Virus record (IMG/VR): IMGVR_UViG_3300047548_000949
Coordinates: 1 to 30,372 of that record
Strand: one strand, 5' to 3'
From: a virus
DNA: 30,372 nucleotides
Shown: positions 1,187 to 24,249 of the stretch, one piece after another
How positions within the stretch are numbered: the stretch's first letter is position 1
Layout: every line of letters starts with the position of its first letter
Made by a program: the position numbers and the translations under genes
The notes under the pieces: generated by a model
Told to the model about the DNA's origin: nothing
Databases searched by the model: none
The model's input: only the letters and a program-made list of their open reading frames with translations

Positions 1187-2533
1187 TTAATTTGTTAAAG
1201 AATTACCTTTGAAATAAATATTAAACAATGAATTATCAAGTCTCATGTTCGGCATACCAAAGGTTGTGTATAAACGATATATGCCAGCAGGTATTGTAGA
1301 GCCTGTATAATCAAATGTTAAATCATAGTATGTTTCATTCATATTTACGGGAATCATTGAATTAGGATTACCAAAATCATTGACCCCTATGTTGTTCACC
1401 TTAAAACCATTTGTAGCTCCAGTGGAAATAATCCAAGTGTACCAAGCAAGACCAGAAACAGTTCCAGCAGAAACCTCATAAGTCTTAAATAAATAAGGTT
1501 GCACTAAATTACCATATGCGTCAACACTACCACCAAGTGTGACAATATCTGCAACACCAACTGAAGGGGAGTTACCACCCCAACCAGAATATGAAATATA
1601 CCTGTTCATTTGGCTTGCTAACATTACACTATTTGTAGATGGCGCTAAACCATTTGAAAATCCACGGAATGAAGATGAACCAGAACCCATCCATTCGTTG
1701 AAGTTTACATTTTCGCTTATAGGTTCTATAAATAAATAAGCGTGGTATAAGGTATTACTTGGTGTTATTGAAGGGGTAAGTGTGGGGGTATTTGTTGGGG
1801 TTATGCTAGGGGTTGGTGTTATTGTTGGAGTTGGGGTATTTGTTGGGGTAGGACAGGCCGTGGAGCCTGTTATGAATCCATTATTATCCACCCCATAACA
1901 AACACCGTTTATCACAAACCTTGTTTCTGCCGACCAAGTGTTTGAAACATTATTTTGACAGTTAGATAAACCTAAAAAGTATTGTTTACCTATAGAACCG
2001 TCAAAATTTGCATAACGACCAAATATTGGGTTATTAGGATTGTTAGCACATGTTAAGTTACAACCAATATTATTTAAATCCCTAGCCACCGAAAATACCT
2101 TGCAACCAAAAGGTGTCGGTGTAACTGTATTTGTTGGAGTCGGTGTTATAGTATTGGTGGGCGTGTTTGTGGGGGTTATAAAAGGAGAATTAGTTGGGGT
2201 TTGAGTATTTGTCGGGGTGACAGTATTAGTTGGTGTATTTGTGGGTGTTTTGGTTGGGGTTCTAGTGGGTGTTGGTGTTTGAGTCGGAGTGGGGGTTGGG
2301 CTTGTACATTCTATACTTAAAGTAACCCCGGACAATAAAACAGAACGCTCTATGCCAGAATAGATGGGTGTGGAACCAGTAGAGTTTAGGTATATATTAA
2401 ATGGGCCGGAAGCATCAGAAGTTTGACCCAAATAAATTGTATATGTAGAACATCCATTTACAGTTAACTGCTCCTCTATGTAATTTGTGCAAGTATCAGA
2501 TTCGTTAACTATAAATACTGAATAAATAGACAT
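1187..2533 (-). CDS. Modular structural protein with two Pro/Thr linkers
   Basis: 448 residues with an ATG start. Four modules are visible: an N-terminal domain (about 1-77), a Pro/Thr linker (about 78-141) built from PTPT and PTNT units, a small Cys-containing domain (about 142-227), a second Pro/Thr linker (about 228-260), and a C-terminal domain (about 261-448) rich in Gly, Asn and aromatic residues. Pro/Thr linkers of this kind are extended spacers between folded domains in surface proteins and large-phage tail proteins. A tail-fibre or decoration role is inferred from this and from its place in the tail cassette. A candidate late promoter lies 14 bases before the start. The next gene begins one base after its stop. 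I recognise none of the three folded domains. Confidence 0.8.
1754..1852 (-). repeat. Pro/Thr-rich linker repeat (second)
   Basis: This stretch encodes residues 228-260 of the modular protein. It is a run of Pro-Thr pairs alternating with Asn, Ile, Ser or Leu. The coding-strand DNA is a degenerate short tandem of CC(N)AC(N) codon pairs, seen on the plus strand as repeated GTTGGGGT-like words. Confidence 0.8.
2111..2302 (-). repeat. Pro/Thr-rich linker repeat (first)
   Basis: This stretch encodes residues 78-141 of the modular protein, about 64 residues dominated by Pro and Thr with interspersed Asn, Gln, Arg, Lys and Val. It is an imperfect tandem of two- to four-residue units (TPT, TNT) joining the N-terminal domain to the small Cys-containing domain. 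Confidence 0.8.
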
Positions 2534-2555: not shown

Positions 2556-2825
2556 TCAAATTAGTTGGTTTTGAACTATAGTAATAGTAAAATTACAGTT
2601 ATAAGAACAATTCAATATTTTATAATACCCTATGTTGTTAGAATCTACCAATTTAACTAATATCTCTGGAATGTTATTAAATATAGTTGGTGGTTGGAAA
2701 GTTTGATTGGGAGGTATAGTAGATGATATAGTACCCAATAAAGTGCTGTTTTCTCCACGTATGTCAGAAACATAAACATCAAATGGTGTAGTTCCGGTTA
2801 GGCCGACAAATATTAACCTATTCAT
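2556..2825 (-). CDS. Small hypothetical protein of the tail cassette
   Basis: 89 residues beginning [12 protein letters not shown] prefer the ATG at 2825 because it overlaps the TGA stop of the upstream SprB-repeat gene as ATGA, the classic coupling arrangement; a GTG three codons upstream (2834) is possible. The protein is rich in Thr, Ile and Asn, predicted mostly beta, with two Cys close together near the C-terminus (CSYNC). There is no signal peptide or membrane segment. Its position between the SprB-repeat protein and the Pro/Thr-linker protein suggests a small tail-tip, fibre-connector or decoration subunit. That is inference, and I do not recognise the family. Confidence 0.7.
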
Positions 2826-4948
2826 GTTGAACACATTATATTATAATCAATTTTAAGTTTAGCCTCTATAACCTGACCATTTAAATTTGTAGAACTTGGT
2901 GCGGATATTATTTTTATTGTATTTGTTATGGGGTTAAGTTCTAGCGATTCTATGCCCGGTATTGTAGATATTAAATCCTTAATTGAATTATACCATAAGT
3001 TATCTGCGGGTATATCGGTTCTGCTGTAACCAGTATAAAAAACTTGTGAATTTGTAAAACCAGAAGGGGTTACGGACACCTCCGCCGAATAAATAGCACT
3101 AATCAAAACACATCCTGTATTACCACTAGTAAGGTCGGCATATCCTTCATTTAACAATTCAAACATTCCTCTTTTACTTGAGGAACCCACTTCAAAATTT
3201 TGGTCAAAAACTGAATATGTTTCATAGGATTCATATACAATTGGACAAGATATTATCGCTGTCCTACTTAAAGAACAACCATTTCCATCAACTATGGTTA
3301 AACTATAAGTGCCACCACTTAAATTACTAGCTGTTATGGTTTGTGGGTTTCCAGAAACATTAGAAGACCATTGATAAGTGAAAGGAGGCGTTCCGCTATT
3401 TATGAAAGCTGTTATTTGCCCACTATTGCCATCACCACAAGATGTTGTTGATAACGAAAAATCAAGAGGTGCGCTCTGGGAAACTATTACATTCATATCT
3501 TGCCTACAACCAGTTGAATCAGATACACCAACAATGTGTTGCCCACTTGAAACATTATAAAAAGTATGTCCAGTTAATGAAGTATCAAAACCAACACCAT
3601 CTAAATAATATGTAAATGGTGAAGTGCCTCCAGTTGATTGGTACACATATATTTTACCATTATTTGAACCACATGTTGTGCCAGTAGTTGATGCCGATAT
3701 TGTGAATTTATTTTCGGTTAAAATAATAACTTCTTCAGAATAAGTGCAACCAGAAGAATCTGTAACACCCACTGTATATGTACCAGAAGAAAGACCTGTA
3801 AATACAAATGAAGTAGATGAATTTGAATAGGTTGAAGTCCCTCCGGTTGGGTTTATAATATAATAAGAATATGGAAAAGAACCCCCATTTATGGACATAC
3901 TTATCTGACCATCTGAATTGGAACAATAAGAATTTTCAGATACGATATTAACACTTGATATGTTATTTGGTGATAATAAAGGTACCGTTTGTGTATATGA
4001 ACACAGAGAAGAATCCCTAGTATAAACAGAATAAACTCCGGGAGATAATCCGCTCAAAATAAATTCCCTGCTATATGTGGTCTCAATATTACCAGTACTT
4101 GCAGAATAACAAAATGGAGGTGTACCACCTGTTGTGTAGAATAATATAGAACCGTCGGCAGAAAAACAAGTGGGAGGTGTAGGTGTTGCAAAACCAAAAC
4201 CCACAGGTTCTACTTTTTCAACTATTGCCGATTTTGTTAATCTACAATTATTTGAATCTGTAACAGTTACTGAATAAGAACCTTCGCTTAAACCAGTTAT
4301 GGTATTTCCAGTAGAATTATTACTCCAAAGATAAGAGTATGGTGGATAACCAGTTTGACCCGTAACATACAATTTACCGTTAGGTACAATATCACAGCTC
4401 GCATTCGCTACTGAAAATATTCCAAAATCAAAATCTGTTGATTCATTAATTATGAAGTATTCACTTCTACCAGTGCAACCACCCAAATCAGTTCCAACAA
4501 CGTAATATGTGTCAGCACTAAGTGAGTCGAAAATAAAAAAATCAGTGTTTATGGTAGCTGATTTAACATATGAATCCGAACTATTATATAAATCAAATGT
4601 TGAATATGAAAAATATGAATTAGTATTCCCAGTCATTGAGCCATTATCATTTCCACATGTACTATCTTTTGTTTGAGAAACAGATACACACATCCCAGAA
4701 GAAACTGGAATTGTAACCAAAAAACTTTGGTTTGTAGGTAATGTGGAATCATTTAATTGTAAAAGATAATTGCCATGATAAAGTCCAGTTCTTGTTGAAG
4801 AAGAACTTGTATTATCGTAATTTAAATTAGGTTCTAACCAATTAACAACATAAGGAGGTGTCCCCCCGGTCAACGTTATATTTATTGCACCAGAACTATT
4901 CGATTGACAATCGCCAGTTACTAATATTTTATAATCAAAAGCAGCCAT
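2822..4948 (-). CDS. SprB-repeat (Ig-like) adhesin-type tail protein
   Basis: 708 residues from an ATG at 4948 that shares its A with the TAA stop of the upstream gene; a TTG at 4954 is a less likely start. Residues about 11-565 form seven repeats of roughly 60-75 residues. Each opens with a Cys-containing segment followed by G.I.....GG.PPY, then a G.Y.V.V.D..GC close (for example SCDIVPNGKLYV and GSYSVTVTDSNNC). This is the SprB-repeat pattern known from Bacteroidetes gliding-motility adhesins and other secreted surface proteins. Residues about 569-708 are a different, non-repetitive C-terminal domain. In a phage tail cassette the likely role is an extended host-contact fibre or adhesin. No signal peptide is present, consistent with a virion protein. 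The repeat family assignment is fairly sure; the binding target is unknown. Confidence 0.85.
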   Translation of the reverse strand: MAAFDYKILVTGDCQSNSSGAINITLTGGTPPYVVNWLEPNLNYDNTSSSSTRTGLYHGNYLLQLNDSTLPTNQSFLVTIPVSSGMCVSVSQTKDSTCGNDNGSMTGNTNSYFSYSTFDLYNSSDSYVKSATINTDFFIFDSLSADTYYVVGTDLGGCTGRSEYFIINESTDFDFGIFSVANASCDIVPNGKLYVTGQTGYPPYSYLWSNNSTGNTITGLSEGSYSVTVTDSNNCRLTKSAIVEKVEPVGFGFATPTPPTCFSADGSILFYTTGGTPPFCYSASTGNIETTYSREFILSGLSPGVYSVYTRDSSLCSYTQTVPLLSPNNISSVNIVSENSYCSNSDGQISMSINGGSFPYSYYIINPTGGTSTYSNSSTSFVFTGLSSGTYTVGVTDSSGCTYSEEVIILTENKFTISASTTGTTCGSNNGKIYVYQSTGGTSPFTYYLDGVGFDTSLTGHTFYNVSSGQHIVGVSDSTGCRQDMNVIVSQSAPLDFSLSTTSCGDGNSGQITAFINSGTPPFTYQWSSNVSGNPQTITASNLSGGTYSLTIVDGNGCSLSRTAIISCPIVYESYETYSVFDQNFEVGSSSKRGMFELLNEGYADLTSGNTGCVLISAIYSAEVSVTPSGFTNSQVFYTGYSRTDIPADNLWYNSIKDLISTIPGIESLELNPITNTIKIISAPSSTNLNGQVIEAKLKIDYNIMCST
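3254..4918 (-). repeat. Seven SprB-like protein repeats
   Basis: Protein-level repeats begin near residues 14, 98, 185, 261, 342, 426 and 504 of the adhesin-type gene. Each shows an N-terminal Cys, a GG.PPY-like turn and a C-terminal D..GC. They are divergent at the DNA level, so they are old duplications and unlike the nearly identical 27-bp array at the left edge. Confidence 0.8.
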
Positions 4949-7911
4949 TAACAACTTATTTTAATGTCTAACCCCACACTTAAAGTTACTTTGTTATCAT
5001 TCAAGTAACAATCAGGGGAATATAAAGTCATAATACCATTGTATAAATAATAATCATACCCATATTCTTTAACCTGTTCAAAACCAGTCAATATACCATA
5101 TAACCAAGAAGAACCTATTGGGGCATCATCAGAACCATAACCATAATAAAAAGGAAATTTAACTATTTGAACATTCCCAATTTTCAAATCAACATACCAA
5201 ATGCTTCTGACTGTTTCGTATAGACAGTTTTTATCATTCAATCCCAAATCAGACCTCATGTGGTTTAACCTATCTGCCAACATAGATTTAAAATTGGAAA
5301 CAAAGTCCGTTGAATTTTCCCAAGGGTATAAATCAAAACTAACTTGTGATTTCCCACAATTGAAATCAAAAACATTCCCTATTATTATTTCATCTGATTT
5401 GGGTACTTTTAAAAGCTGACAACCTCTTTGCCTTCTGTAAGCAAATTTTTGCCTATGGAATATAGAGTTCTCAAATTTCAAACCTGTTTTCCATAGTGTT
5501 GTGGCCGGAACCATCTGCTCTATCAAATTAACCCAATACTGGTTTAAACCTTGTACATATTCTATTATTTTCTGATATGTGTATTTATTATTTGGTATAC
5601 CAGTAGTTTCTTCGGATTCGATGTATTTCCAAAATATAGAATCCAGCGTAGGATAACCCCCAGTCTTGCCGTCGGTTATGTACATTCTGTTTCTAACATT
5701 TATCATGTTTTTCCAGAAAGTTTGAGCAAATTCAAAGAAACTTTTGTTTTTTGGTTTAGGGTTTATATAAGTCCAGTCAACACCACCTATCTGCGGATAA
5801 GGGTTTGTAAGACCTGTGTTTGGTATTGGGTAATCATACCTAACTGACTCATCCCAAACATCATAAACTAAACCAATCGAAGGGTTTATGAAAATATCTA
5901 CATTTTTTGAATTTAAAACCAACCTTTCATCATCAGTATAATAGTATGCGTCATAACCACCATCAACCGATATTCGTGTTTTATTATTACTATAAACCCA
6001 AGATTTTTTATTGTCAATCGTTTTGGTCAATTTAAAACCTTCGTTCATATAAGGAAACTTTATGAACCTATCCAAATATTTCTGCCCGTAAGTGAAGGGT
6101 TCCAAACTTGTTTGAATGTCTATATTTTGACCTGTATAAACCTGACCGTTTAATGTTACCAAATCTGGACTCCTATGTTCCGGTGTAGATTGATACCAAC
6201 CAGCGCCCTTTTGAAAGTAAAACAAGTCTGTATTTCTGGGTGTAGAAGGATAACCTTCTGAGTCTAATGGATAATCTGATTTTTCAATGTTAATACTTTG
6301 ATAAAAATTTCTAGTGGTAAATCCAGTAAAAGTAGTGCCTCTTATTTTAAATGTTACATCGTTTTGATATACAGGTTCTTGAATTACATAAGTACCACCA
6401 CTTATTTTGGCATATTTGGAATTAAAATCTTCTATGTTTATCTTTTGGTCTGCTAAATAGATATATTCATTAAATTCTATCAAAGGGTCTGGGGCACCAA
6501 TTAATCTAAGCAAAAATTCAATTGAACGTCTAGTCCCTTTAGAACGAAATAGATAAGCTGAGTTTATTATTAAATTTCTATAAAAAGCAAAGTTTAATTC
6601 GTTTGGGGTCTGCGCCCTTGCATAGCCCGGATATGTTACATCTGTGGTATTCCCAAATATACTATCCAAAAAACTCTCATTTGTTATTGGGGATATGTTT
6701 GTGTCCCAACCTAATGTTTTTGCCAAATTAACAAGTAATTGAGATGGAATATCGTTACTTGGATTATAATTAACAGAATTTACATAAGCAATACCGTCTA
6801 TGAATTTTTTTATTTCGTCAAAACTTCTGCCATATATTTGAAGTATTGATTCAACTTTCCTACCCAAGGTATCAAATTCTTTAAGGGAATCGGATACCAA
6901 AAATCTGGATATTAAATTGGTTTTGAAAGAATCCATAATGTCTGCAACATTCTGCAATTCTTCCAAATAAGTGTCAAAGGCTGGTGTGCGTATATCTAAG
7001 TTCCAAGAACCCTCTCTTGGCCATGTTACTTGCCTTTTGTCTAAGTAAAATTGCCCATAATCATTTTGTTCCGGTATTTGGAAAATGGCAGTATATATAG
7101 GGTCAATTAACCTATTTAAAAGGTATTGTTCTATTTCGTCAAAAGAATCCTTAAAAATCCTATCTACGACATAATCATTCGGTCTTATTTTATAAGGCAA
7201 GACTGTTTGTGTTAGACCGCTAAAAGGATTTCCTTGAACATAAAAAGCCAAACTTCCAGTTAACAAAGACTGTGAAGGAGACAAAGAAAGGATTTTGTAT
7301 ATATTGTCATTTATATCTATACAATAATCCAAATATGTTGATGGTAAGTCTCTATAAGGGGATACTGGTATCTCACTATAAGTAATGTTGTTTTTAGAAT
7401 TAACCGAATAGTCTATACCAAAAGGGTTGAAAAATCGGTTTACATTTACCTCAAAATATGTTTCATCGTTAACCGAATCGTATGATATATTTTCTGCTGT
7501 ATAGCCACTAAGAAGGTTAATATTGAATTGTTCAACATCAATGGACGCTGGAAAATAGTTTATTATCTTTGTTACTGAAACGCTAAACCTCTTAGATAAA
7601 GAACCGTATAATGAAAAATTTAATACCTGAGATATATCATAATTAGGATAAATCCTTACTTCGTTAGATAGAAAAACCCTGTTTTGTTGTTCGTTTAATA
7701 TATTGAGTTTATCTAATGTTATCGGTTCGTTGAAAGAACCTATGCTGAAAGTTCTTACAACTCTTTCTAATACATTTGAAGTAAATTCAAAATTACCACC
7801 TGTTAGGCCACCCCCCGATACTGTTTGTAAACCAACTATATCGTCAGAAAATGTCCCCCCGCCGCTACCCGGCCTTGGTGGATAAAAATATTTTCCTATC
7901 GGGTCAGACAT
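4948..7911 (-). CDS. Large tail/baseplate protein with tail-protein-I-like segment
   Basis: 987 residues with an ATG start. The N-terminus is Gly/Pro-rich (PPRPGSGGG). Around residues 437-474 a segment reads like YRNLIINSAYLFRSKGT followed by RRSIEFLLRLIG. It resembles the helical R.KGT...L..LLRL.G signature of phage tail protein I / P2 gpI-type baseplate proteins; I recognise this only by pattern. Much of the rest is Tyr/Asn-rich and beta-looking. The stop shares a base with the next ATG (TAATG), and its own ATG overlaps the upstream stop in the same way. The gene is therefore the second of a four-gene coupled block running from 8816 to 2556. A baseplate-periphery or tail-tip role is likely, but the exact T4 counterpart is not clear. 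Confidence 0.75.
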   Translation of the reverse strand: MSDPIGKYFYPPRPGSGGGTFSDDIVGLQTVSGGGLTGGNFEFTSNVLERVVRTFSIGSFNEPITLDKLNILNEQQNRVFLSNEVRIYPNYDISQVLNFSLYGSLSKRFSVSVTKIINYFPASIDVEQFNINLLSGYTAENISYDSVNDETYFEVNVNRFFNPFGIDYSVNSKNNITYSEIPVSPYRDLPSTYLDYCIDINDNIYKILSLSPSQSLLTGSLAFYVQGNPFSGLTQTVLPYKIRPNDYVVDRIFKDSFDEIEQYLLNRLIDPIYTAIFQIPEQNDYGQFYLDKRQVTWPREGSWNLDIRTPAFDTYLEELQNVADIMDSFKTNLISRFLVSDSLKEFDTLGRKVESILQIYGRSFDEIKKFIDGIAYVNSVNYNPSNDIPSQLLVNLAKTLGWDTNISPITNESFLDSIFGNTTDVTYPGYARAQTPNELNFAFYRNLIINSAYLFRSKGTRRSIEFLLRLIGAPDPLIEFNEYIYLADQKINIEDFNSKYAKISGGTYVIQEPVYQNDVTFKIRGTTFTGFTTRNFYQSINIEKSDYPLDSEGYPSTPRNTDLFYFQKGAGWYQSTPEHRSPDLVTLNGQVYTGQNIDIQTSLEPFTYGQKYLDRFIKFPYMNEGFKLTKTIDNKKSWVYSNNKTRISVDGGYDAYYYTDDERLVLNSKNVDIFINPSIGLVYDVWDESVRYDYPIPNTGLTNPYPQIGGVDWTYINPKPKNKSFFEFAQTFWKNMINVRNRMYITDGKTGGYPTLDSIFWKYIESEETTGIPNNKYTYQKIIEYVQGLNQYWVNLIEQMVPATTLWKTGLKFENSIFHRQKFAYRRQRGCQLLKVPKSDEIIIGNVFDFNCGKSQVSFDLYPWENSTDFVSNFKSMLADRLNHMRSDLGLNDKNCLYETVRSIWYVDLKIGNVQIVKFPFYYGYGSDDAPIGSSWLYGILTGFEQVKEYGYDYYLYNGIMTLYSPDCYLNDNKVTLSVGLDIKISC

Positions 7912-8845: not shown

Positions 8846-9907
8846 TTACTGTTTATTCGTCAGGTTGAAAAACCCATATCCATAATTTTCCAAATCTAAC
8901 ATATTTGATACCTCTCCCAACCTGTTTATTTTTTCATACGGTGAAATTACACCTCTCTCAATAAAAACACTTGTTTGTATTTGAGGTTGGTCAACCATAT
9001 CCAACATATTTTCATCTTTGGTGATAGGAACTGCCACAATATCATCTTCTGTAAAACTATTATACTCTTCTAAAAATATAGTTAAACCTTCTGCATAATC
9101 AAAATACTTAATGCCTTGTATTGTGTAACCAGTATATGATTCAGCTATGTCATCAACCATTCCATATATGTCCCCATATTTTATAATAGGTACGCCAACA
9201 ATATATTTTTCATTTCCGTAAAGGGAAAGTTCTTCCAATCTTGATTTGGTTATACCACTAATTAAAACTGGTTTATTATAGACTTGTGCGGATTTATAGT
9301 TTTCGGAGTCGCCGGAAAAAATATAATTATAACTTATTGGCGTTGCCGACCAGTTACCATTAAAAGACTTAAACTCTATTGTACCATAAGGGTTTTCATT
9401 TTCGGATAAAACGTATGGCGTCTTTATTTTTTTGGTTACAATATTTGTACCCCAAGCGTTTGTTTGTGTTAATTTTATCTCGTAGGTATTATTCGCTTCT
9501 GGGTATTCGTGAGAAATGGGTACGAAACTTTCATTTACTGAAATGGGGTTTGAACCATCACCCCAATCTAAAACATATGTAGAAGATTGTAAAAATTTGT
9601 TAAATGGTTCGCTCGTATTAAAGACATGGAAAATATATGGCTGCTCAGTTGTACCCGAAAAAACAAAATTAGAAACATTATTTGCTTGTTCCGCCAATCC
9701 ATCAAAAGGGGTATAATAACCCAAATCCTTTATGGTTTGTGTTAGCAGTATGTTTATAGATAAACCTGTTAAGATAGATGTATTGTTAGCACCGCCTTTT
9801 AATAAAGATGTCATCCCGGTATAAACCCCAAAAGTATTTCCGCTATATTGTTTTTGCACAATATCTGAATATATGGAACCGGGAGATATTTTTATTTTAT
9901 AGTTCAT
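8846..9907 (-). CDS. PKD-domain tail protein
   Basis: 353 residues from an ATG at 9907 that overlaps the upstream TGA as ATGA. A TTG seven codons further up (9928) is possible but would sit deeper inside the upstream gene. A PKD-like Ig fold is visible at about residues 100-163: the W-G-D-G-S core (about 115-119) preceded by YVLD, then HEYPE and a N-A-W-G strand ending. PKD domains are beta-sandwich spacers or binding modules found on Bacteroidetes surface proteins and on phage tails. The rest of the protein is unrecognised. It is the last gene of the four-gene block started by the 1536-residue protein. A role in tail fibre or host contact is inferred. Confidence 0.75.
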   Translation of the reverse strand: MNYKIKISPGSIYSDIVQKQYSGNTFGVYTGMTSLLKGGANNTSILTGLSINILLTQTIKDLGYYTPFDGLAEQANNVSNFVFSGTTEQPYIFHVFNTSEPFNKFLQSSTYVLDWGDGSNPISVNESFVPISHEYPEANNTYEIKLTQTNAWGTNIVTKKIKTPYVLSENENPYGTIEFKSFNGNWSATPISYNYIFSGDSENYKSAQVYNKPVLISGITKSRLEELSLYGNEKYIVGVPIIKYGDIYGMVDDIAESYTGYTIQGIKYFDYAEGLTIFLEEYNSFTEDDIVAVPITKDENMLDMVDQPQIQTSVFIERGVISPYEKINRLGEVSNMLDLENYGYGFFNLTNKQ

Positions 9908-10671
9908 GGATTTACATATTGAAACCAATTTATTGGATTTGAGGCAATACCTGCCAATATATTATTGCCATCATATACTTGATAAGTATATGTTTCGTAA
10001 TTTAAAACAAATTTGTAATAAAAATATTTTGTGTAATCAAAATCATAAGGGTCGGAAAAAGAAGATTGCCTATCGTTCATCATCCTAATAAACGAACCTG
10101 TTTTAGCATCGTAAAATTTACAAGAAACATAAAAAGTATTTATCTTTGAAATATCATAATTGCCCAGCCAATAAATGTTAAACCCGTTCATTCCGTAATC
10201 AAGTTTATAGTTAGGGTAATTTACAGAGTATGTTTGACCGGAAATAGATAAATTAGTTGTATTTGATTTATTTGCGTTTAATATAATTGTCAAATAATTC
10301 TTTTGCCTCTTATCAGTAGGGGTGTCATAAAAATCCAATTTGAAAAATGATTTTGAAAAACCTTCTGAATTGAACCGCATTTCATTTATAGAAAATTTAT
10401 TTACAAACGTACTTACCCAATTAGATGCGGTATTTAACCCAGAACCAGAATAGAAATAAAAGTTGTAATTAACAGAAGTATTTGAATCAATACCTTTATG
10501 TGTGAATGGCGTGGTTTCGTAATCTTTTGCTAAACCAACTATATCGGATATTACTTCCTCTTCATATAATTCTATAGATTGCTCCTGACCTAAATTTGAA
10601 AAGTCAATATCAATAGGAATTATCAAATTTTTATCTGAACCCTGTATTCTGTTTAAACTATATCTATTCAC
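9904..10671 (-). CDS. Hypothetical structural protein (255 aa)
   Basis: The start is GTG at 10671, overlapping the TAG stop of the upstream gene by eight bases. No in-frame ATG follows within the first twenty-odd codons, so GTG is probably real. The 255 residues are soluble-looking, Asn/Tyr/Ser-rich and beta-looking, with several Y-F/Y-Y pairs (for example NYNFYFYSG). There is no signal peptide, membrane span or recognisable motif. Coupling to its neighbours on both sides and the shared composition with the 558-residue protein upstream suggest a partner in the same tail sub-assembly. That is inference from context. Confidence 0.7.
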   Translation of the reverse strand: MNRYSLNRIQGSDKNLIIPIDIDFSNLGQEQSIELYEEEVISDIVGLAKDYETTPFTHKGIDSNTSVNYNFYFYSGSGLNTASNWVSTFVNKFSINEMRFNSEGFSKSFFKLDFYDTPTDKRQKNYLTIILNANKSNTTNLSISGQTYSVNYPNYKLDYGMNGFNIYWLGNYDISKINTFYVSCKFYDAKTGSFIRMMNDRQSSFSDPYDFDYTKYFYYKFVLNYETYTYQVYDGNNILAGIASNPINWFQYVNP

Positions 10672-15300: not shown

Positions 15301-16943
15301 AACCTTCCAAATTTTTTGGGTCTTAAAGCACCCAAACTTAAAACAGACAATACAGGTCTGGTTAAAAAATTCCAAAGGAAAGCTATTGCGTGGTATGAAA
15401 TTAATATAGAAACCCCAAACATCTGGAATATTTGGAATAAAATTGAAAATATAAAATATACCAAATCAAAATTTCTAACTCCATCGTTTACCGGAAATTT
15501 ATTTACCGTTGGTGTACACGAATCATCGTCTATTTCTTTTATACCAATAAACCTACCTCTGGAAGAACCGTTTTTGTAGTTATCAATTAAACCAGAAACT
15601 GTATAAACCCTATTATATTCAAATTCATAAAAAGTATCCTCGCAATTGACCGCCGAATTGTAATCGGTGTATCCCGTCCAGTCAAGGCCAAAATAATAAG
15701 AACCTGAAATATTCTCCCATTCCAAAGAGTCTTTAGGGAAATAGTTAGGGTCGTTTGTATTGTTTGTCCAATATTCTCTTACGTTAGGAACCAAAAAATA
15801 AGCCCTGCGAACTTGCTCTGTTAAAGAGTTTGGTTGCTCCCACTTTATTTTGAACCTATATTTACCTTTTGTGGGTATGCCTCTTTTCGGGTCGTTTGTA
15901 ACCACTCTTTCACCATACTCATTTGTTGTTATATATTCTAAATTCATAGGTAGTTCAACCACCCAAGAACCGTCACCGTCTATTACCGTTCCAGAGTTAT
16001 TAATCCTATATTCCTCCAATATGGGTCTGCCTTCGTTATCTTCATTTATTGTTTGACGAATAGACAATATTTGTCCGGGTCCGGTTTCCAAATTGCACAA
16101 ATTGCCCATATCGTCTTTTGGTTTGCAATTTTTCCTAACCCTATATTTGTCGCCAGTAGAAAAAATACTACCTATGAAAATTGATGTGGGTTGTATATCC
16201 ACATTTGCATCTTCCCTCAAATCAAAATCAACCCTATTTATGGATACATCACAAACTTCTTCCTGACCCCATAATGGGCTAACATCTATGCTTTTCTGTA
16301 AAGATATTATTTGAGGTAATTCATTTAGATTTGTTGAACTATTGAACCTATTCCCAACCAACTGGGATTCATTAGCCAAACCCATTCTTATCAAATCGTT
16401 TGGCGTCAATGAAAATTCGCCAATATCGGATAAGTCTATATCCACAAAAACTGTTTGTGGCCCCACAGGTACGCCAAATATCATGTAGTCGCCACTATCA
16501 TTTGTCTTTACTGTGTATTTGTAATATTTTTCATATATCTCATATAGAGTTTCATCTTTTAAAACATCATCCCTACTCGGGAAAGTACCAGTCGGTATAT
16601 GACCTTTATATGATTCTACATATGGTAATAGATTGTATCTATACCCATCTTCATTTGTGCTGTTAGTTGATGTGTATGGATATAATGTAGATATTACGGG
16701 GTTTGATTTATCCTCTTCGCTTATGGGTACAAAAACAGATACTTTTACATTTGAAAGCCCATATCCATTGTTGGCAGTAATCCTACCGACAATAACACCA
16801 TAATCAGAACAGTTTCTAGTGTATATATCGTCTTGCGTTATCTTCAAAGATAATATCTCTAAAAAATCAAAATCCTGAGAAAATTTAATATTTATTTGTT
16901 TGTTTAAACCAACGTCGGTTTTTATCCTAAAGGAATCGGCCAT
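12333..16943 (-). CDS. Giant structural protein (1536 aa) with internal hydrophobic segment
   Basis: The largest gene in the window, with an ATG start preceded by an A-run and, 11 bases away, a candidate late promoter. Residues about 49-175 contain G-x-I-x-G-R-I followed by Gly/Leu/Val-rich strands and a later NDSGDYMIFGVPVG. This looks like a carboxypeptidase-regulatory / transthyretin-like beta-sandwich. Residues about 492-541 are strikingly hydrophobic (starting FDLVYFIFSILFQIF), long enough for one or two membrane-spanning helices, and are followed by a basic stretch and the Cys cluster CQACDC (558-563). The remaining roughly 950 residues are Asn/Ser/Tyr-rich. It lies directly downstream of gp25- and gp6-like wedge genes, so a baseplate or tail-tip role is likely. 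I know no T4 counterpart; membrane contact during infection is speculation. Confidence 0.75.
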   Translation of the reverse strand: MADSFRIKTDVGLNKQINIKFSQDFDFLEILSLKITQDDIYTRNCSDYGVIVGRITANNGYGLSNVKVSVFVPISEEDKSNPVISTLYPYTSTNSTNEDGYRYNLLPYVESYKGHIPTGTFPSRDDVLKDETLYEIYEKYYKYTVKTNDSGDYMIFGVPVGPQTVFVDIDLSDIGEFSLTPNDLIRMGLANESQLVGNRFNSSTNLNELPQIISLQKSIDVSPLWGQEEVCDVSINRVDFDLREDANVDIQPTSIFIGSIFSTGDKYRVRKNCKPKDDMGNLCNLETGPGQILSIRQTINEDNEGRPILEEYRINNSGTVIDGDGSWVVELPMNLEYITTNEYGERVVTNDPKRGIPTKGKYRFKIKWEQPNSLTEQVRRAYFLVPNVREYWTNNTNDPNYFPKDSLEWENISGSYYFGLDWTGYTDYNSAVNCEDTFYEFEYNRVYTVSGLIDNYKNGSSRGRFIGIKEIDDDSCTPTVNKFPVNDGVRNFDLVYFIFSILFQIFQMFGVSILISYHAIAFLWNFLTRPVLSVLSLGALRPKKFGRFKLPMITYPDCQACDCESQTIEDENGVLTSSLLTQLSDNSLYYDNILSILSSSGEIDDDETISRIVSESLAGRKDDKKSVATYKSTESKEYRLLSDNKKVFGYSFDLPLAERINIFNTRKKFFDGINRIRVTFNKPSNSGKQHYDNTVTILLQDKLESGTLLTFVNPDNSQDVNFLAVQTTKSGEVINGLTGNTMISGYNTLNVNYATSQNEDASVSYLVYNESQTTNYKFPSDIEYYQVISAITISDATKIWDLTGGGDTLPKILSAGSNVFLNTKDNIFSWGKAEENPFNNSDLFDSFKGQYITILQRGVDPYSPKFVNEYGLGRIFGKNGHDDIVITAETRLNIPVQKISDGYSIQMFGNQSSVFYPSYFFTPGTSFSAHTTSNIGYYGSLSYGNAFQYKAEPVEIGGIKSVVSKINNRFYNNLPNEINYDGSEDLSGCGYYYGTESNGNNTPSNTEVLYYSPTFKSFFESNPMPINNRLLNVIRTDRLPSSDYLDGFSWDTNASLLQQNLGFNTYTINADSNQIVVESYGLGSNTYNPDFEDTIAYEALNTFDCTNMVGLKCYSGNGTSFGIKENCQDEDSIENGCYVFMSRPILDLPKDIKSFAEWGYRFRFFYGICRGVLSQTFSNNWVNGSLYAFPIQVNTTYNSNNQPNEPDFCKELIFFDDKTNNFYYRSSPYNILTKQFIGKRASSSQNSNNQRNLLYPTTIMNMGMKNKNLSETSFDLSSKMYTLDKIGATSYGDTSDLVNLFVISRITDQRFFSQFYSFINRNNSLEMLFSRENSRVDGDLAQLLSINSENGVIKFSPEFYVSSDNAYDPVIFVTNNNKNSIGVFFSSTTEDLQYKDFISPGRLDIRTPINNTLKQLIFGNKSQLVPFYSWKLSDGESIFGNEKNDWATDLDSIYTRKYQGLDRLNQFDYFLSPNYLLNDTYARGYIFNVDNLGRYEPLTKNRRNEIIMGAPNHFYFGLIKGKTAMDKFKTKYLPNE

Positions 16944-16947
16944 TTTT

Positions 16948-16961
16948 TTTAACCATAAATA
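16948..16961 (-). promoter_or_regulatory. Candidate late promoter motif upstream of the 1536-aa gene
   Basis: The coding strand reads CTATTTAT followed by GGTTAAA, 11 bases from core to ATG. It lies just downstream of the terminator that follows gp6, so a fresh start is needed here for the four-gene block beginning with the giant protein. Confidence 0.6.
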
Positions 16962-17003
16962 GATTAAAAAATATTAAATAGATTTTTTATATAAAAACAA
17001 CCG

Positions 17004-17028
17004 AAAAAACAACCATATTCAGTGGTTG
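17004..17028 (-). terminator. Rho-independent terminator after the gp6-like gene
   Basis: On the minus strand CAACCA, a seven-base loop and TGGTTG form a perfect six-bp stem (17023-17028 with 17010-17015) followed at once by six T residues (17004-17009). It begins 16 bases past the gp6-like stop codon. The rest of the 16944-17044 gap is A/T-rich and holds only the next candidate promoter. Confidence 0.75.
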
Positions 17029-17044
17029 GTTAGTTCAATGATAT

Positions 17045-18877
17045 TTAACCAAAAGAAACATTTTGAAAATTCTTAACCCTTACCCGAATATCTTTTTCTG
17101 GGAACCTTATTTGATATATTTGAGAAGGTTCAGCAAAGACTGTATCATCAACCGGGGCTATAACCCTTGTGTTATTATCAACATAAGCCATGGAACTTTC
17201 AGATGAAGAATACTGCCCACCAACTTCATTTATAATTGTGAAACCAGCAACAGTTATCACACCATTCAAATTCTGGACGGCACTTCTTATTTCAGAAACA
17301 TATATATTTTGACCCAAATTCATATTTTGAGGGTTGAAGTATTGTGATATGGTGTTTATAATCGAAGATATTACCTGACCAGAATTTTGATTACTTTCTA
17401 TTACAACAGATATATCTATGCTAACATCAATAACTTGAGCGGATAATATGCTGATATAATCATTTATCATCCTATAATTTGAAAGATAATTTGCTATATT
17501 GTCTTTTAATGTCTGGGAAACAACGGAAGACAATCTTCCTGTGGTATCATAAGATAAAATTTGAATGTTAATTTTATTATCATTTTCAACTATTGCCACT
17601 TTTGCGGGAGCGCCAAATTGTGCTGGCATATTCCTTAGTATTGCCTCATAATCCCTTATTGTTACTGCCCTTTTTTGCGCTGCAAAATTAAAAGACACAA
17701 AATTTCTGACTTCTTCTATGGAAGGGGGGTTTGCACCTCCTACCGCTGCCGTTACGTTATTACATCTAAGAGATGAGATAACAGACGAATTCACCACATC
17801 AGATGGTCCACTAACATTAAAATTGACCGTGCCAACTTGATTTATTACATTTGTCCCCAAGTTACTTGCAAGTCCACCGCCTATCCTGTATTGTATGAAC
17901 AAAGTGGAGTTGGGTGTTAATGCAGAACCCAAAGAAAAATTATTCAAATAGTTTTGCATGGTAAGCCTTGCAAGACCAAGTGTGAAATTGTTTAATTGTT
18001 CTATGGAACTATTTGTACCACCGCCAAAAGTTATTTTTTTGAAACCCTCTGGTGTATACTCAGTAACAAACCTATTTGGCGTCTGTAAATATTTTCCAAC
18101 TTTAATTCCGGGTTGGTCAGATACCTTTGTGGGGTCTTCAATAAACACCCTATCTTCTGCCAGCGAATCCACCTCATACCATCTATTCTCACTTCCCAGA
18201 AATTCCAATGCGTTAGGAGTTGTTGTATAGTTTGTCCCGCTTTTGAGTAAAACACTGGTAATACCTAAAACATTCTTTTCAGGTAAAAACAAATCTAAAA
18301 ATGGCCTAACATCAGAAGGTGTTATAACCCTCTTGAATACTTTTGTTATACCGTTTACGACCAATTCCCTTTTAGTAATTGTGTAATTTACCAGAACACC
18401 GTTAGAATTAAAATTAGGTATTTTAAGTCTATTTGGATAACCTTGGGAATTATATGGTGACGCAAAATCTATATCGTATATTGTTTCAAATACCACACCA
18501 GCGCCGCTGACTTGTGCGCCCCTTATTATTTTACCCAAATATCTTTCATCTTCTTTATCCCCTTGCGCAGGTACAGTTATAGAAAAATCAACCAAAGATA
18601 CTGACGGTCTTTGCCCGGGTATCTTTAAACCATATGTTCTGGCAATGTTATATATGGAAGACCTTTGCTGGGCAAACTGTAAAACCGTTTCTTGTAAACT
18701 TCTGTCAATGTGATAATTAAGGTTATCGGCAATAGCGGCATTCAAATCCAAGAATACAGAAAATAACGAAGCGTCGTTAAAGTCTTGTATTAAATCTGGA
18801 TAATAAACCTTTACATAATTTATTAATTCAGCTCTTATTGCTTCGTAATCCCTAACTGTATATGATAGTTGCGACAT
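17045..18877 (-). CDS. gp6: gp6-like baseplate wedge protein (baseplate J family)
   Basis: 610 residues with an ATG start. The N-terminus (SYTVRDYEAIRAELINYVK, then DFNDASLFSVFLDLNA) is the typical opening of T4 gp6 / Mu gp47-type baseplate J proteins. Later features fit too: a GGGTNSS turn near residue 290 and, near 400, RNFVSFNFAAQKRAVT leading to RDYEAIL, the recurring RDYEA signature of this family. In contractile-tail phages gp6 forms the wedge ring that changes shape on host contact. The gene sits directly after the gp25-like gene, as wedge genes often do. It has its own candidate late promoter and is followed by a terminator, so it may be a monocistronic late unit. Family assignment is confident; numbering follows T4 by analogy. 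Confidence 0.9.
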   Translation of the reverse strand: MSQLSYTVRDYEAIRAELINYVKVYYPDLIQDFNDASLFSVFLDLNAAIADNLNYHIDRSLQETVLQFAQQRSSIYNIARTYGLKIPGQRPSVSLVDFSITVPAQGDKEDERYLGKIIRGAQVSGAGVVFETIYDIDFASPYNSQGYPNRLKIPNFNSNGVLVNYTITKRELVVNGITKVFKRVITPSDVRPFLDLFLPEKNVLGITSVLLKSGTNYTTTPNALEFLGSENRWYEVDSLAEDRVFIEDPTKVSDQPGIKVGKYLQTPNRFVTEYTPEGFKKITFGGGTNSSIEQLNNFTLGLARLTMQNYLNNFSLGSALTPNSTLFIQYRIGGGLASNLGTNVINQVGTVNFNVSGPSDVVNSSVISSLRCNNVTAAVGGANPPSIEEVRNFVSFNFAAQKRAVTIRDYEAILRNMPAQFGAPAKVAIVENDNKINIQILSYDTTGRLSSVVSQTLKDNIANYLSNYRMINDYISILSAQVIDVSIDISVVIESNQNSGQVISSIINTISQYFNPQNMNLGQNIYVSEIRSAVQNLNGVITVAGFTIINEVGGQYSSSESSMAYVDNNTRVIAPVDDTVFAEPSQIYQIRFPEKDIRVRVKNFQNVSFG

Positions 18878-18884
18878 TTAAAAA

Positions 18885-18898
18885 TTTTATGATAAATA
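18885..18898 (-). promoter_or_regulatory. Candidate late promoter motif upstream of the gp6-like gene
   Basis: The coding strand reads ATATTTAT followed by CATAAAA, 14 bases from core to ATG. It lies in the 37-base gap between the gp25-like stop and the gp6-like start. Confidence 0.6.
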
Positions 18899-18914
18899 TT
18901 TAAGGTAAATGAAA

Positions 18915-19388
18915 TTATAGGTTTATAATTATAAAATCAGATTGATTGAAAACGTTATTTGTTATTGAATAATCTATCCTAACCTTAGCAGTATATTCTG
19001 TTGTGCCTTTTCCCGGAGACCTATATATCTTACTTCTTGAATCTTCTTCATAATTTTCTTCCGAAGATGTTGGTATTGAACTTGTTTCATTTCCGTATGG
19101 TTCAACTGTAATATCATTTATGAGTATATTCGGCATATATTTTTGAACAGAATCCCTTATGTCCGATTCTATTGCAGAAAATGTAATCCCGTCATATGGT
19201 TCAAATATGAACTCATAAATCCTTGTCCCAAAATCCGGTAAATAATAACGAGAACCCTTTCTGGTTAATATTAGATGTAATAAATCGGCGCGTATCTCCT
19301 CTGTGAAAGTTTCTGTCATCCTGAGATAACTGCCCTTTAAACTATCCCTGAATGGAAAATCTATTCCATATGTTGAACCATTAGCCAA
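18915..19388 (-). CDS. gp25: gp25-like baseplate wedge protein
   Basis: 157 residues. It carries the gpW/gp25 family pattern: YGIDFPF near the N-terminus, an EEIRADLLHLILTRKGSR helix, then YLPDFGTRIYEFIFEP and later strands. T4 gp25 is a lysozyme-like-fold wedge subunit at the sheath-baseplate junction. The start is TTG at 19388: the next in-frame Met is residue 24 and would delete the conserved GIDFPF segment, so the TTG is very likely real. Residues about 105-130 hold a Ser/Glu-rich insertion (SSIPTSSEENYEEDS), probably a loop. A candidate late promoter lies 13 bases upstream. It is followed by the gp6-like gene after a 37-base gap. Confidence 0.9.
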   Translation of the reverse strand: MANGSTYGIDFPFRDSLKGSYLRMTETFTEEIRADLLHLILTRKGSRYYLPDFGTRIYEFIFEPYDGITFSAIESDIRDSVQKYMPNILINDITVEPYGNETSSIPTSSEENYEEDSRSKIYRSPGKGTTEYTAKVRIDYSITNNVFNQSDFIIINL

Positions 19389-21726: not shown

Positions 21727-24249
21727 TTATTCACAATTTACACATTCCAAAATATTTCTCGCAAAAGCCTGAGCCGAATTTTGAGAGTATTGATAATATA
21801 AAGTCTTTACACCCTCTTCATGTGCATAAAGATACAGTTGGTTTATATCTTTGGCTGAAATGCTGGGGTGAATCATTAAATTCAAACTTTGTGATTGGTC
21901 AATATACTTCTGTCTTTGAGCGGCTTGTAATACAATTTCTTTTGGGGAAATCTCCAAAAATGTCTTAAAGACTTCTTTGGTTGGAAAATCAAGATGTTGC
22001 ACCGAGCCGTCCTTAACCATAATGCTATCCCAAGTCTGTTCATTATTTAAACCATATTTTTCAAGTTCGCCCAAAAGATATGGGTTTTTATAAATTGTCC
22101 TGATTTTAGCCAAATCTTTTACAAAATAGTTAGACTTCATCGGTTCTATACCCATGCTAACTTGACCCAATATAAAGGATGAAGACTTAGTGGGGGCAAT
22201 TGCTATAAGTGTTGTATTAGCATATCCCGGTCGTATACAAGCGTATTTAGATGGGTTGCTTTCATATAGAGCCATTGAAGTATTTTCAGAACGCTCCCTA
22301 ATCGTTTTGAAAATATGGTTATTATAATATTTCGCTTTCAATGATTCAAAAGGTATCAATTTAGACTGCAAGAATGAATGATAACCCAAAACCCCAAGTC
22401 CGATTGCCCTATGGTTCTTAGCAAAATTATTGGCTCTTTCCATTCCATGCAAACCGTTTGATTTAACTATAAACTCATCCATTACAGCATTTAGAAATTG
22501 AATGTACGTTTCAACCGCATCCGTGTTTTCTATTTCATCCCAATGTAATAAATTTATTGACCCAATGCAACACACAAATGAATTTTCATGGTCAGTGGGT
22601 AACATTATTTCAGAGCAGTTAAAAGTTTTAAGACCATTAGATACAAATATATGTTCATCGTTAAAAACCGTGGGGCAGTATACTGGTTCATTATCTAATT
22701 TTTCAATATACCAAACCCTAGTCCTGCTTTCTGATTCTTCCTTGTTTTTTATGTTTTCAACATCGATTTGCCTATGACATAAAATATGAGTTTTTTCATC
22801 AATCAAAGATAAATCTTTTTTTGTGTTAAAAACCAATCTATACCAAGATAAATTGGCTCTTTTTTCGGGTTTATCTTGTTGTTCAACATGTTCCAAACTA
22901 CAAGATAAACCTAAATTTGTAAACAAAATTTGAAGTTCAGCCAAAAAATCTCTGTGTGTATCCAGATAATAAAGTTCCAAATAATCGGTATCTACACCGG
23001 ATACAATACCATGCGCACCAAATAAACCGTTTAGGTAAGACCATACTGTTAGTTCGGTAGAAATCCAAATCCAAGAAGGTATTTCTGGCTTTTCTGTATC
23101 CAAAGCAATGGGCGCTTGTATACAATCCATTCTTCTTAATCTAATCTTAGATTGATATGAGCCAAGTAAAAATGCCTCTTCGGACATATTCAAATCACCA
23201 AACAAACCTTTCTGTGTTTGGGTTGCGACATAATCCCCAATTTTTAAATCTTTAGCCTCTACCCTTTGTATGCCTTTTTCTGTATCATTGATAACAGCAA
23301 TGCCGTGATTTGGAGAAACTTTTTGGGTCATGCCATTCGCATACGTTATTTTTAAAATTTCAGAATTGCTATCTCTTAATAACATAGGCGAAGCCATAAC
23401 CTTCTCTTGGCCGTTGAATAAAACCAATTCATTACATTCTGTTTCCAGCTCTTTAACAGTCAAATAACCTTTAGAAGTGAGAACCCTTTGGTCAGCCGTT
23501 AGACAAAGATTAGAAGCTGTGATTTCCATGTCAAGGTCTTTGTAAGGGGTGTTGTTGTTGGCATTGTCCTTAAACAAAATATAAGGAAAACCAATCTCGC
23601 TTCTCCTTTGGATTACCTTTGCCCATATCTTTCTTTTTTCAGTATCACCGTTTTTCATTTCTTGCAACCACTGGTCAGAAACGCTAACCCCATATTGCAA
23701 GTTTTGTATGGGGTTTCCTTCGGTTGCAATATTCAAAAATTCATCAATGTCTTTATGTTCCAATGGTAGATAAACAGCACAAGCCCCCCTTCTGGCTTCG
23801 CTTTGTTTACAAACGTCTACAACGGTGTCGTAAAGCATGGCATAATGAACTGGGCCGTCAGCGTGTCCTCCGGTTGAAATGGCAGTGCCTCTTGGTCTTA
23901 AATTACCCAAATAAGCAGAAGTACCACCACCATATTTTGACATTAAACCAATTTCTCTGGCCGTATCCAATATCCCATTCATGGTATCAGGAACATTTGA
24001 ACCATAACAGGATATAGGCAAACCTTTGTTTTTTCCAAAGTTTATCCATACCGGAGTAGATAGGCTGTAATAGCCTTTCGCCATATAGGTTTCAAACTTT
24101 TCGGCAAAACCCTCAATCCCAAGGTATTCTTCAGCTTTAGTGGCAATCTCTTTTATCCTATCTTCTGCGCTTTCGCTTATGTAACCTCTGGATAAAAAAG
24201 TTCTGGCTTCGTCGTTGAGCCAGTAATAATTGTTGTATGGTTGGTTCAT
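21727..24249 (-). CDS. nrdA: Class I ribonucleotide reductase alpha subunit with intein
   Basis: 840 residues: a 544-residue extein interrupted by a 296-residue intein (residues 249-544). It reduces ribonucleotides to deoxyribonucleotides together with NrdB. Visible catalytic features: Cys81 (SCYGSN, the first redox Cys), the N-L-C-S-E motif split by the intein (Asn247, Cys545, Glu547; Cys545 corresponds to the thiyl-radical Cys439 of E. coli NrdA), Cys560/Cys561 as the second redox Cys, the Tyr818-Tyr819 radical-transfer pair (TLYYQ), and the C-terminal redox pair Cys836/Cys839. There is no N-terminal ATP-cone, so the usual dATP overall-activity switch appears absent. The start follows the nrdB stop by 15 bases; the thioredoxin follows by one. 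Function depends on correct protein splicing. Confidence 0.95.
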   Translation of the reverse strand: MNQPYNNYYWLNDEARTFLSRGYISESAEDRIKEIATKAEEYLGIEGFAEKFETYMAKGYYSLSTPVWINFGKNKGLPISCYGSNVPDTMNGILDTAREIGLMSKYGGGTSAYLGNLRPRGTAISTGGHADGPVHYAMLYDTVVDVCKQSEARRGACAVYLPLEHKDIDEFLNIATEGNPIQNLQYGVSVSDQWLQEMKNGDTEKRKIWAKVIQRRSEIGFPYILFKDNANNNTPYKDLDMEITASNLCLTADQRVLTSKGYLTVKELETECNELVLFNGQEKVMASPMLLRDSNSEILKITYANGMTQKVSPNHGIAVINDTEKGIQRVEAKDLKIGDYVATQTQKGLFGDLNMSEEAFLLGSYQSKIRLRRMDCIQAPIALDTEKPEIPSWIWISTELTVWSYLNGLFGAHGIVSGVDTDYLELYYLDTHRDFLAELQILFTNLGLSCSLEHVEQQDKPEKRANLSWYRLVFNTKKDLSLIDEKTHILCHRQIDVENIKNKEESESRTRVWYIEKLDNEPVYCPTVFNDEHIFVSNGLKTFNCSEIMLPTDHENSFVCCIGSINLLHWDEIENTDAVETYIQFLNAVMDEFIVKSNGLHGMERANNFAKNHRAIGLGVLGYHSFLQSKLIPFESLKAKYYNNHIFKTIRERSENTSMALYESNPSKYACIRPGYANTTLIAIAPTKSSSFILGQVSMGIEPMKSNYFVKDLAKIRTIYKNPYLLGELEKYGLNNEQTWDSIMVKDGSVQHLDFPTKEVFKTFLEISPKEIVLQAAQRQKYIDQSQSLNLMIHPSISAKDINQLYLYAHEEGVKTLYYQYSQNSAQAFARNILECVNCE
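22618..23505 (-). mobile_element. Intein in NrdA with degenerate LAGLIDADG-like region
   Basis: 296 residues starting at Cys249 (CLTADQRVLTSKGY, block A) and ending at Asn544 before Cys545. Block B is SPNH (312-315), with Ser in place of the usual Thr. Block F spans VYCPTVFNDEHIFVSNG (523-539). The penultimate residue is Phe543 where His is usual. The middle contains LLGSYQSK (361-368) and LNGLFGAHG (406-414), which resemble the two LAGLIDADG helices, but the catalytic acids are missing (His where Asp is expected). The splice ends look competent, while the homing endonuclease is probably inactive. Removal joins Leu248 to the catalytic Cys545. Confidence 0.92.

Follow-up and report, generated by a model that had tools for sequence, protein, structure and literature searches.

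The window, meaning the whole stretch of DNA analysed here, is a 30,372-base virus record whose identified genes all lie on the minus strand. From upstream, the gene order is UvsX-like, exonuclease, DnaB-like, both ribonucleotide reductase subunits, thioredoxin, nuclease, gp25-like, and gp6-like. There follow several large unknown proteins; a 987-residue protein; a protein with seven SprB repeats (the SprB protein); a 92-residue protein; a 448-residue protein with Pro/Thr linkers; and a collagen-like protein with tail-fibre matches. The genes of the tail region considered here are:

18915-19388, minus strand: gp25-like baseplate wedge protein (GPW_gp25, 1.4e-10)
17045-18877, minus strand: gp6-like baseplate wedge protein (Baseplate_J, 2e-9; PHROG 219, 7.5e-26)
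4948-7911, minus strand: 987-residue baseplate-region protein, the constant upstream neighbour (synteny; retrieved 80 relatives)
2822-4948, minus strand: seven-SprB-repeat protein of 708 residues (Pfam SprB; place behind the upstream gene kept among relatives)
2556-2834, minus strand: 92-residue protein, with homologs that stand alone or are N-terminal in tip-bearing proteins of relatives (phmmer)
1187-2533, minus strand: 448-residue protein with an N-domain, Pro/Thr linkers, and a C-terminal tip domain (phmmer)

The SprB gene lies inside the tail module, downstream of the gp25-like and gp6-like genes and upstream of the collagen-like tail-fibre matches; the genes around it are baseplate genes, not head genes. 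An earlier note on this DNA, made from the sequence alone, had called the product a phage tail protein. Its place in the tail and baseplate gene cluster favours that label, which derives from the adjoining gp6-like and gp25-like genes rather than from direct proof. Elsewhere in the window, intein-like insertions occur in both ribonucleotide reductase subunits (21727-24249 and 24265-26181), with Intein_splicing matches of 5.7e-9 in the large subunit and 2e-3, below the cut-off, in the small. A 360-residue protein (8846-9928) contains a PKD-like motif (LDWGDGSNPISVNESFVPISHEYPE) recognized by eye and uncalled by Pfam.

The seven-repeat protein

The SprB gene starts with an ATG at 4948, one base of which also belongs to the stop codon of the upstream gene. 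(The open reading frame list placed the start at a TTG at 4954, two codons earlier; orthologs begin at the ATG.) Repeats 1 to 6 were delimited with a repeat HMM and alignment, and repeat 7 is the best single Pfam SprB match in the reading frame; the C-terminal region was defined from alignment A2 and an AF2 model.

4658-4909, minus strand: SprB repeat 1, residues 14-97
4397-4657, minus strand: SprB repeat 2, residues 98-184, with a degenerate GG.PPY motif
4169-4396, minus strand: SprB repeat 3, residues 185-260
3926-4168, minus strand: SprB repeat 4, residues 261-341
3674-3925, minus strand: SprB repeat 5, residues 342-425
3440-3673, minus strand: SprB repeat 6, residues 426-503
3248-3439, minus strand: SprB repeat 7, residues 504-567
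2825-3247, minus strand: C-terminal region, in which an alpha/beta domain spans residues ~595-708 (core pLDDT ~90)

The seven Cys-bracketed repeats described in the earlier note are indeed present. Each unit opens with a Cys (residues 14, 98, 185, 261, 342, 426, and 504), and six of the seven contain a clear version of the GG.PPY motif: GGTPPY, TGYPPY, GGTPPF, GGSFPY, GGTSPF, and SGTPPF. Twelve repeat Cys residues are invariant in 29 orthologs (14, 98, 158, 185, 235, 261, 316, 342, 401, 426, 481, and 558), representing the first Cys in six of the seven units and the second Cys in six.

Pfam SprB (PF13573) matches the reading frame in six stretches with 64.7 bits (gathering cut-off 28; E 5.8e-18), so the proposed match to Bacteroidetes adhesin repeats holds, and the affinity is not to some other Ig-like family only. 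The reverse comparison agrees. An HMM built from only the seven phage units finds, among the matches listed, at least 640 repeats in at least 81 open reading frames of genome contigs, almost all from Bacteroidota, with scores up to 61 bits; these contigs were picked by the pattern GGTPPYTY..W, which favours canonical repeats. Of 99 Bacteroidota genomes, 20 contain Pfam SprB, as against none of the 14 control genomes. Together, the Pfam match, the HMM hits, and the genome counts firmly place the phage units, by sequence, in the SprB family of Bacteroidota surface-protein repeats.

Features of secreted adhesins were also sought. The window protein has no signal-peptide-like N-terminus (hydropathy peak 0.92; orthologs at most 1.47) and no type IX sorting domain: CHU_C is absent, and a Por_Secre_tail match is below the cut-off and falls inside the repeats. 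Neither BACON, among Pfam matches up to E 1, nor any carbohydrate-binding family of Pfam was found in the repeats. The comparison protein, which shows a hydropathy peak of 2.46 and a CHU_C match of 5.1e-14, comes from LR756502, a 642-kb uncultured phage record (L167:10885-15897). It has 1670 residues, with a hydrophobic N-terminus, 13 SprB repeats, PKD, and CHU_C. LR756502 was the only hit in the phage collection; as a tail gene it was rejected, since it encodes a secreted CHU_C protein. Either a huge phage carries this gene as cargo, or the record has been mis-assigned.

A C-terminal domain common to two neighbours

The C-terminal domain, of about 110-115 residues, is common to the SprB protein and the 987-residue protein encoded just upstream:

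4951-5292, minus strand: C-terminal region of the 987-residue protein, homologous to the C-terminal domain of the SprB protein (hhalign)

Alignment of the two regions with hhalign gives a probability of 97.3 and an E of 1.8e-11 over 106 columns, and single-sequence hits of 17-34 bits occur in 40 relatives. The domain is present in all ten virus records tested. A search of 395 Bacteroidota genomes returned one marginal match (6e-4), taken as chance: it is partial and has a stop inside. Foldseek finds no PDB match for the predicted structure of the domain alone (best E 0.3). VIA-align matches to Y-family polymerases (Z at most 5.7) likewise were taken as chance.

The presence of one domain on two adjoining baseplate-region proteins suggests that these may assemble together. 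The domain could be an assembly or docking module; since it has no convincing PDB match, this role is a guess.

Relatives and the number of repeats

Searching viral contigs directly with the repeat protein yielded no relatives. These were gathered instead through the 987-residue and gp6-like proteins, giving 160 viral contig loci, some of them near-identical. The SprB gene comes next after the 987-residue gene in 68 of the 72 loci with downstream room, mostly overlapping it or 0-13 nt away.

The repeat number is nearly always seven: 56 reading frames bearing the C-terminal domain contain seven repeats by the repeat HMM (some of these loci being near-identical). Five others have five or six hits at an equal threshold, with space left for the missing repeats; three of these five are in the 29-row alignment, and there they keep the invariant Cys residues. 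Long extra parts precede the repeats in some relatives (L151, L143, and L150), so the distal end of the array may differ among them. The extension in L143:12970-22917 and L150:12967-22917 is of ~2,470 residues, in reading frames that run off the locus, and that of L143 includes a VWA domain.

Many relatives also have, near the seven-repeat gene, further genes that encode one or two SprB repeats, either on the minus strand near the locus start (L133, L160, L122, and others) or downstream (L101, L103, and others). In L103, the gene behind the seven-repeat gene (15946-19338) encodes an M43 metallopeptidase domain along with two SprB repeats.

The phage collection contains no isolate of this group; its nearest members are ~27% identical in the gp6-like protein. 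One isolate, Flavobacterium phage immuto, has no match to the repeats, the C-terminal domain, or the 987-residue protein within 42 kb around its gp6-like gene. The group comprises uncultured large contractile-tailed phages that probably infect Bacteroidota.

History of the repeats

In a tree built from 202 phage and 204 bacterial repeats, each of the seven phage positions has a group of its own; five of these groups are complete and two nearly complete. None of the bacterial repeats falls inside these groups. In a smaller tree with a richer model, in which positions 3 and 6 each split into two pieces, the labels R1-R7 change 10 times compared to 51.8 in shuffles, and none of 200 shuffles is as low. 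Identities agree: equal positions in different phages average 0.46, and repeats within one phage protein 0.28. (Repeats within one bacterial protein are 0.44 identical, a figure that may be raised because mostly best-scoring repeats were sampled.) Phage and bacterial repeats are ~0.30 identical. The AU test does not reject grouping all the phage repeats into one clade (p 0.72). The repeat alignment has 75 columns only, so the tree speaks to the position groups, not to deep branching or the direction of ancient transfer.

Since each repeat groups with the repeat at the equal position in other phages, and not with its neighbours or with bacterial repeats, the seven-fold array predates the phage group and has been inherited vertically, with a separate history for each bead. 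Phage and bacterial repeats likely have an ancient common origin.

This history bears on the earlier proposal that the module was taken from the host, and in particular on a recent transfer of a piece of a host adhesin gene. In favour of such a transfer are the homology to bacterial repeats and the secreted SprB protein of host type encoded by LR756502, a different huge-phage record. Position orthology runs through the whole phage group, however, with zero bacterial repeats inside and a single phage clade not rejected, which makes recent uptake unlikely; moreover, the gene ends in a domain for which the 395 Bacteroidota genomes offer no convincing match. A recent transfer is therefore hardly credible.

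Mimicry, whereby likeness to the host adhesin would let the phage attach to the gliding machinery or ride on it, is scarcely more so. Gliding and type IX secretion components are discussed as receptors of flavobacterial phages (PMC13288928, PMC7345892), but the phage repeats differ from the bacterial ones and come with no type IX sorting domain. Moreover, repeats of this family also occur outside SprB itself.

Predicted structure

With the 29-row alignment, AF2 predicts seven Ig-like beads followed by the C-terminal alpha/beta domain (mean pLDDT 83). The low pTM of 0.36 is expected of a chain of beads. Foldseek, run against the PDB, matches the repeat array best to fragments of GhpA, an Aureispira surface filament protein (9flp; E 9e-20), although in a second Foldseek comparison fibronectin type III chains score like GhpA. 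Sequence profile A1 also matches GhpA (E 2.9e-7), as well as the neck whisker protein gp24 (9occ; 3.4e-5) and the decoration proteins 5lxk (1e-4) and 8zvi (9e-4). In addition, PHROG 2973, a Hoc-like head decoration family, matches the Ig-like part with E 1.1e-10.

These matches raise the alternative that the protein decorates the capsid or neck, like Hoc or a whisker protein, and only happens to be encoded beside the baseplate genes. The PHROG 2973 match in particular leaves some room for a capsid site. However, the decoration and whisker matches span only the Ig-like beads, whereas the C-terminal domain is common to the baseplate-region neighbour, to whose gene the SprB gene is tightly coupled. 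A site on the capsid or neck consequently appears quite unlikely.

Variable tips

In 25 of 42 aligned sequences, more than 100 residues extend past the C-terminal domain, and these usually comprise a Pro/Thr linker and a tip. The window protein ends at the C-terminal domain, and the tip domain instead is found in the 448-residue protein (residues 261-448; nt 1190-1753). In L151 this same tip is fused to the seven-repeat protein (phmmer, 1636-1819, E 6.9e-40), which ties the separate gene to the SprB apparatus.

The tips often change far faster than the core. Among 56 close pairs (core identity above 60%), mean identity is 0.78 in the core versus 0.47 in the tip. In the pair L133 and L117, identity is 0.92 for the core and 0.42 for the tip, and nucleotide identity drops from ~90% to ~60% at the tip. 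The pattern is not universal: in L115 and L103 the tip is conserved like the core (0.85/0.87). One tip, following the seven repeats in L155:13075-16353, contains DUF285 (BspA-type leucine-rich; E 1.2e-55). A diversity-generating retroelement was considered as the source of tip variation and set aside: five large, possibly incomplete records contain no reverse transcriptase. Receptor recognition probably is performed by the fast-changing tip.

The repeats themselves might instead bind glycans of the host surface, acting as an adhesive that draws the phage to the cell reversibly. Ig-like beads can show weak carbohydrate affinity, and repeats of the SprB family do occur in bacterial surface proteins. 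The BACON repeats in tails of crAss-like phages have been proposed to function in host binding (PMC6949934). Against this, the repeats are fixed at seven, each position evolves slowly, variability is in the tips, and the repeats include no carbohydrate-binding family. Glycan binding by the beads is thus unlikely, and nothing here supports the earlier suggestion that the repeats bind host polysaccharide or the gliding machinery.

A proposed stalk with a recognition tip

These observations are best accommodated by a model in which the SprB protein is a conserved virion component of the tail baseplate or tail-fibre apparatus in uncultured large contractile-tailed phages. The seven Ig-like beads would form a stalk of fixed length, as suggested by their fixed number and slow evolution together with the variability of the appended tips. 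The C-terminal domain, present also on the upstream baseplate-region protein, would likely serve assembly or docking. Host recognition would be left to the fast-evolving tip, not to the beads. In many relatives the tip is joined to the C-terminal domain through the Pro/Thr-rich linker; in the lineage of the window it presumably resides on the separate genes just downstream (2556-2834 and 1187-2533).

Beads that are fixed in number, slow to evolve, and specific to their position, along with an assembly domain in common and a tip that changes fast, would be expected of a stalk-and-tip apparatus for receptor binding; we assign this reading, as a whole, a probability of about 0.66. Its most specific form has somewhat less than an even chance: a length-fixed stalk of seven individually specialised beads, an anchor domain duplicated between two baseplate genes, and swappable receptor-binding tips, either fused or separate.

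The analysis separates a constant part, the seven beads and the C-terminal domain, from a variable part, the tip. Sequence can thereby be used to find the probable receptor-binding tips in this widespread, uncultured phage group. The analysis also indicates that a phage gene annotated as SprB does not necessarily encode an adhesin.

Comparison with known systems

A direct relative is UniProt A0A6J5LD72, a 714-residue protein from an uncultured Caudovirales phage. It has the C-terminal domain and is the one clear match to it among predicted viral structures (TM 0.73, 30% identity, E 1.8e-9). Its name, "SprB repeat", is probably an automatic annotation, and no paper describing it was found.

The SprB proteins of Bacteroidota, among them the gliding adhesin SprB and the secreted CHU_C proteins, have the repeat family, the Cys pair, and the GG.PPY motif in common with the phage array. 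Unlike them, the phage array lacks a signal peptide and a type IX sorting domain, is fixed in number, and has diverged rather than become homogenised. GhpA of Aureispira also is a chain of Ig-like beads and a Bacteroidota surface filament, but it is a cellular protein of 5,898 residues, and it superposes poorly overall (TM 0.17, as expected of a flexible chain). Hoc-like decoration proteins (5lxk, 8zvi) and whisker proteins (gp24, 9occ) likewise contain Ig-like beads; the SprB phage protein differs from them in its genomic setting and its C-terminal domain.

Our search of an open-licence library brought up no paper linking SprB repeats to phage tails. The nearest precedent is provided by the BACON repeats of crAss-like phages, in which a Bacteroidota-associated domain occurs as tandem repeats in tail-associated proteins; those of the crAssphage lineage arose by duplication and are distinct from the bacterial ones (PMC6949934). 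The SprB phage proteins similarly contain tandem repeats of a Bacteroidota type in a tail-associated protein. They differ in the domain family, in the C-terminal domain common to the neighbouring product, and in the exchangeable tips; their own repeats form a fixed set of seven. They thus provide a second case, beside BACON, in which a repeat of Bacteroidota surface proteins serves in tail-associated proteins of phages that probably infect Bacteroidota.
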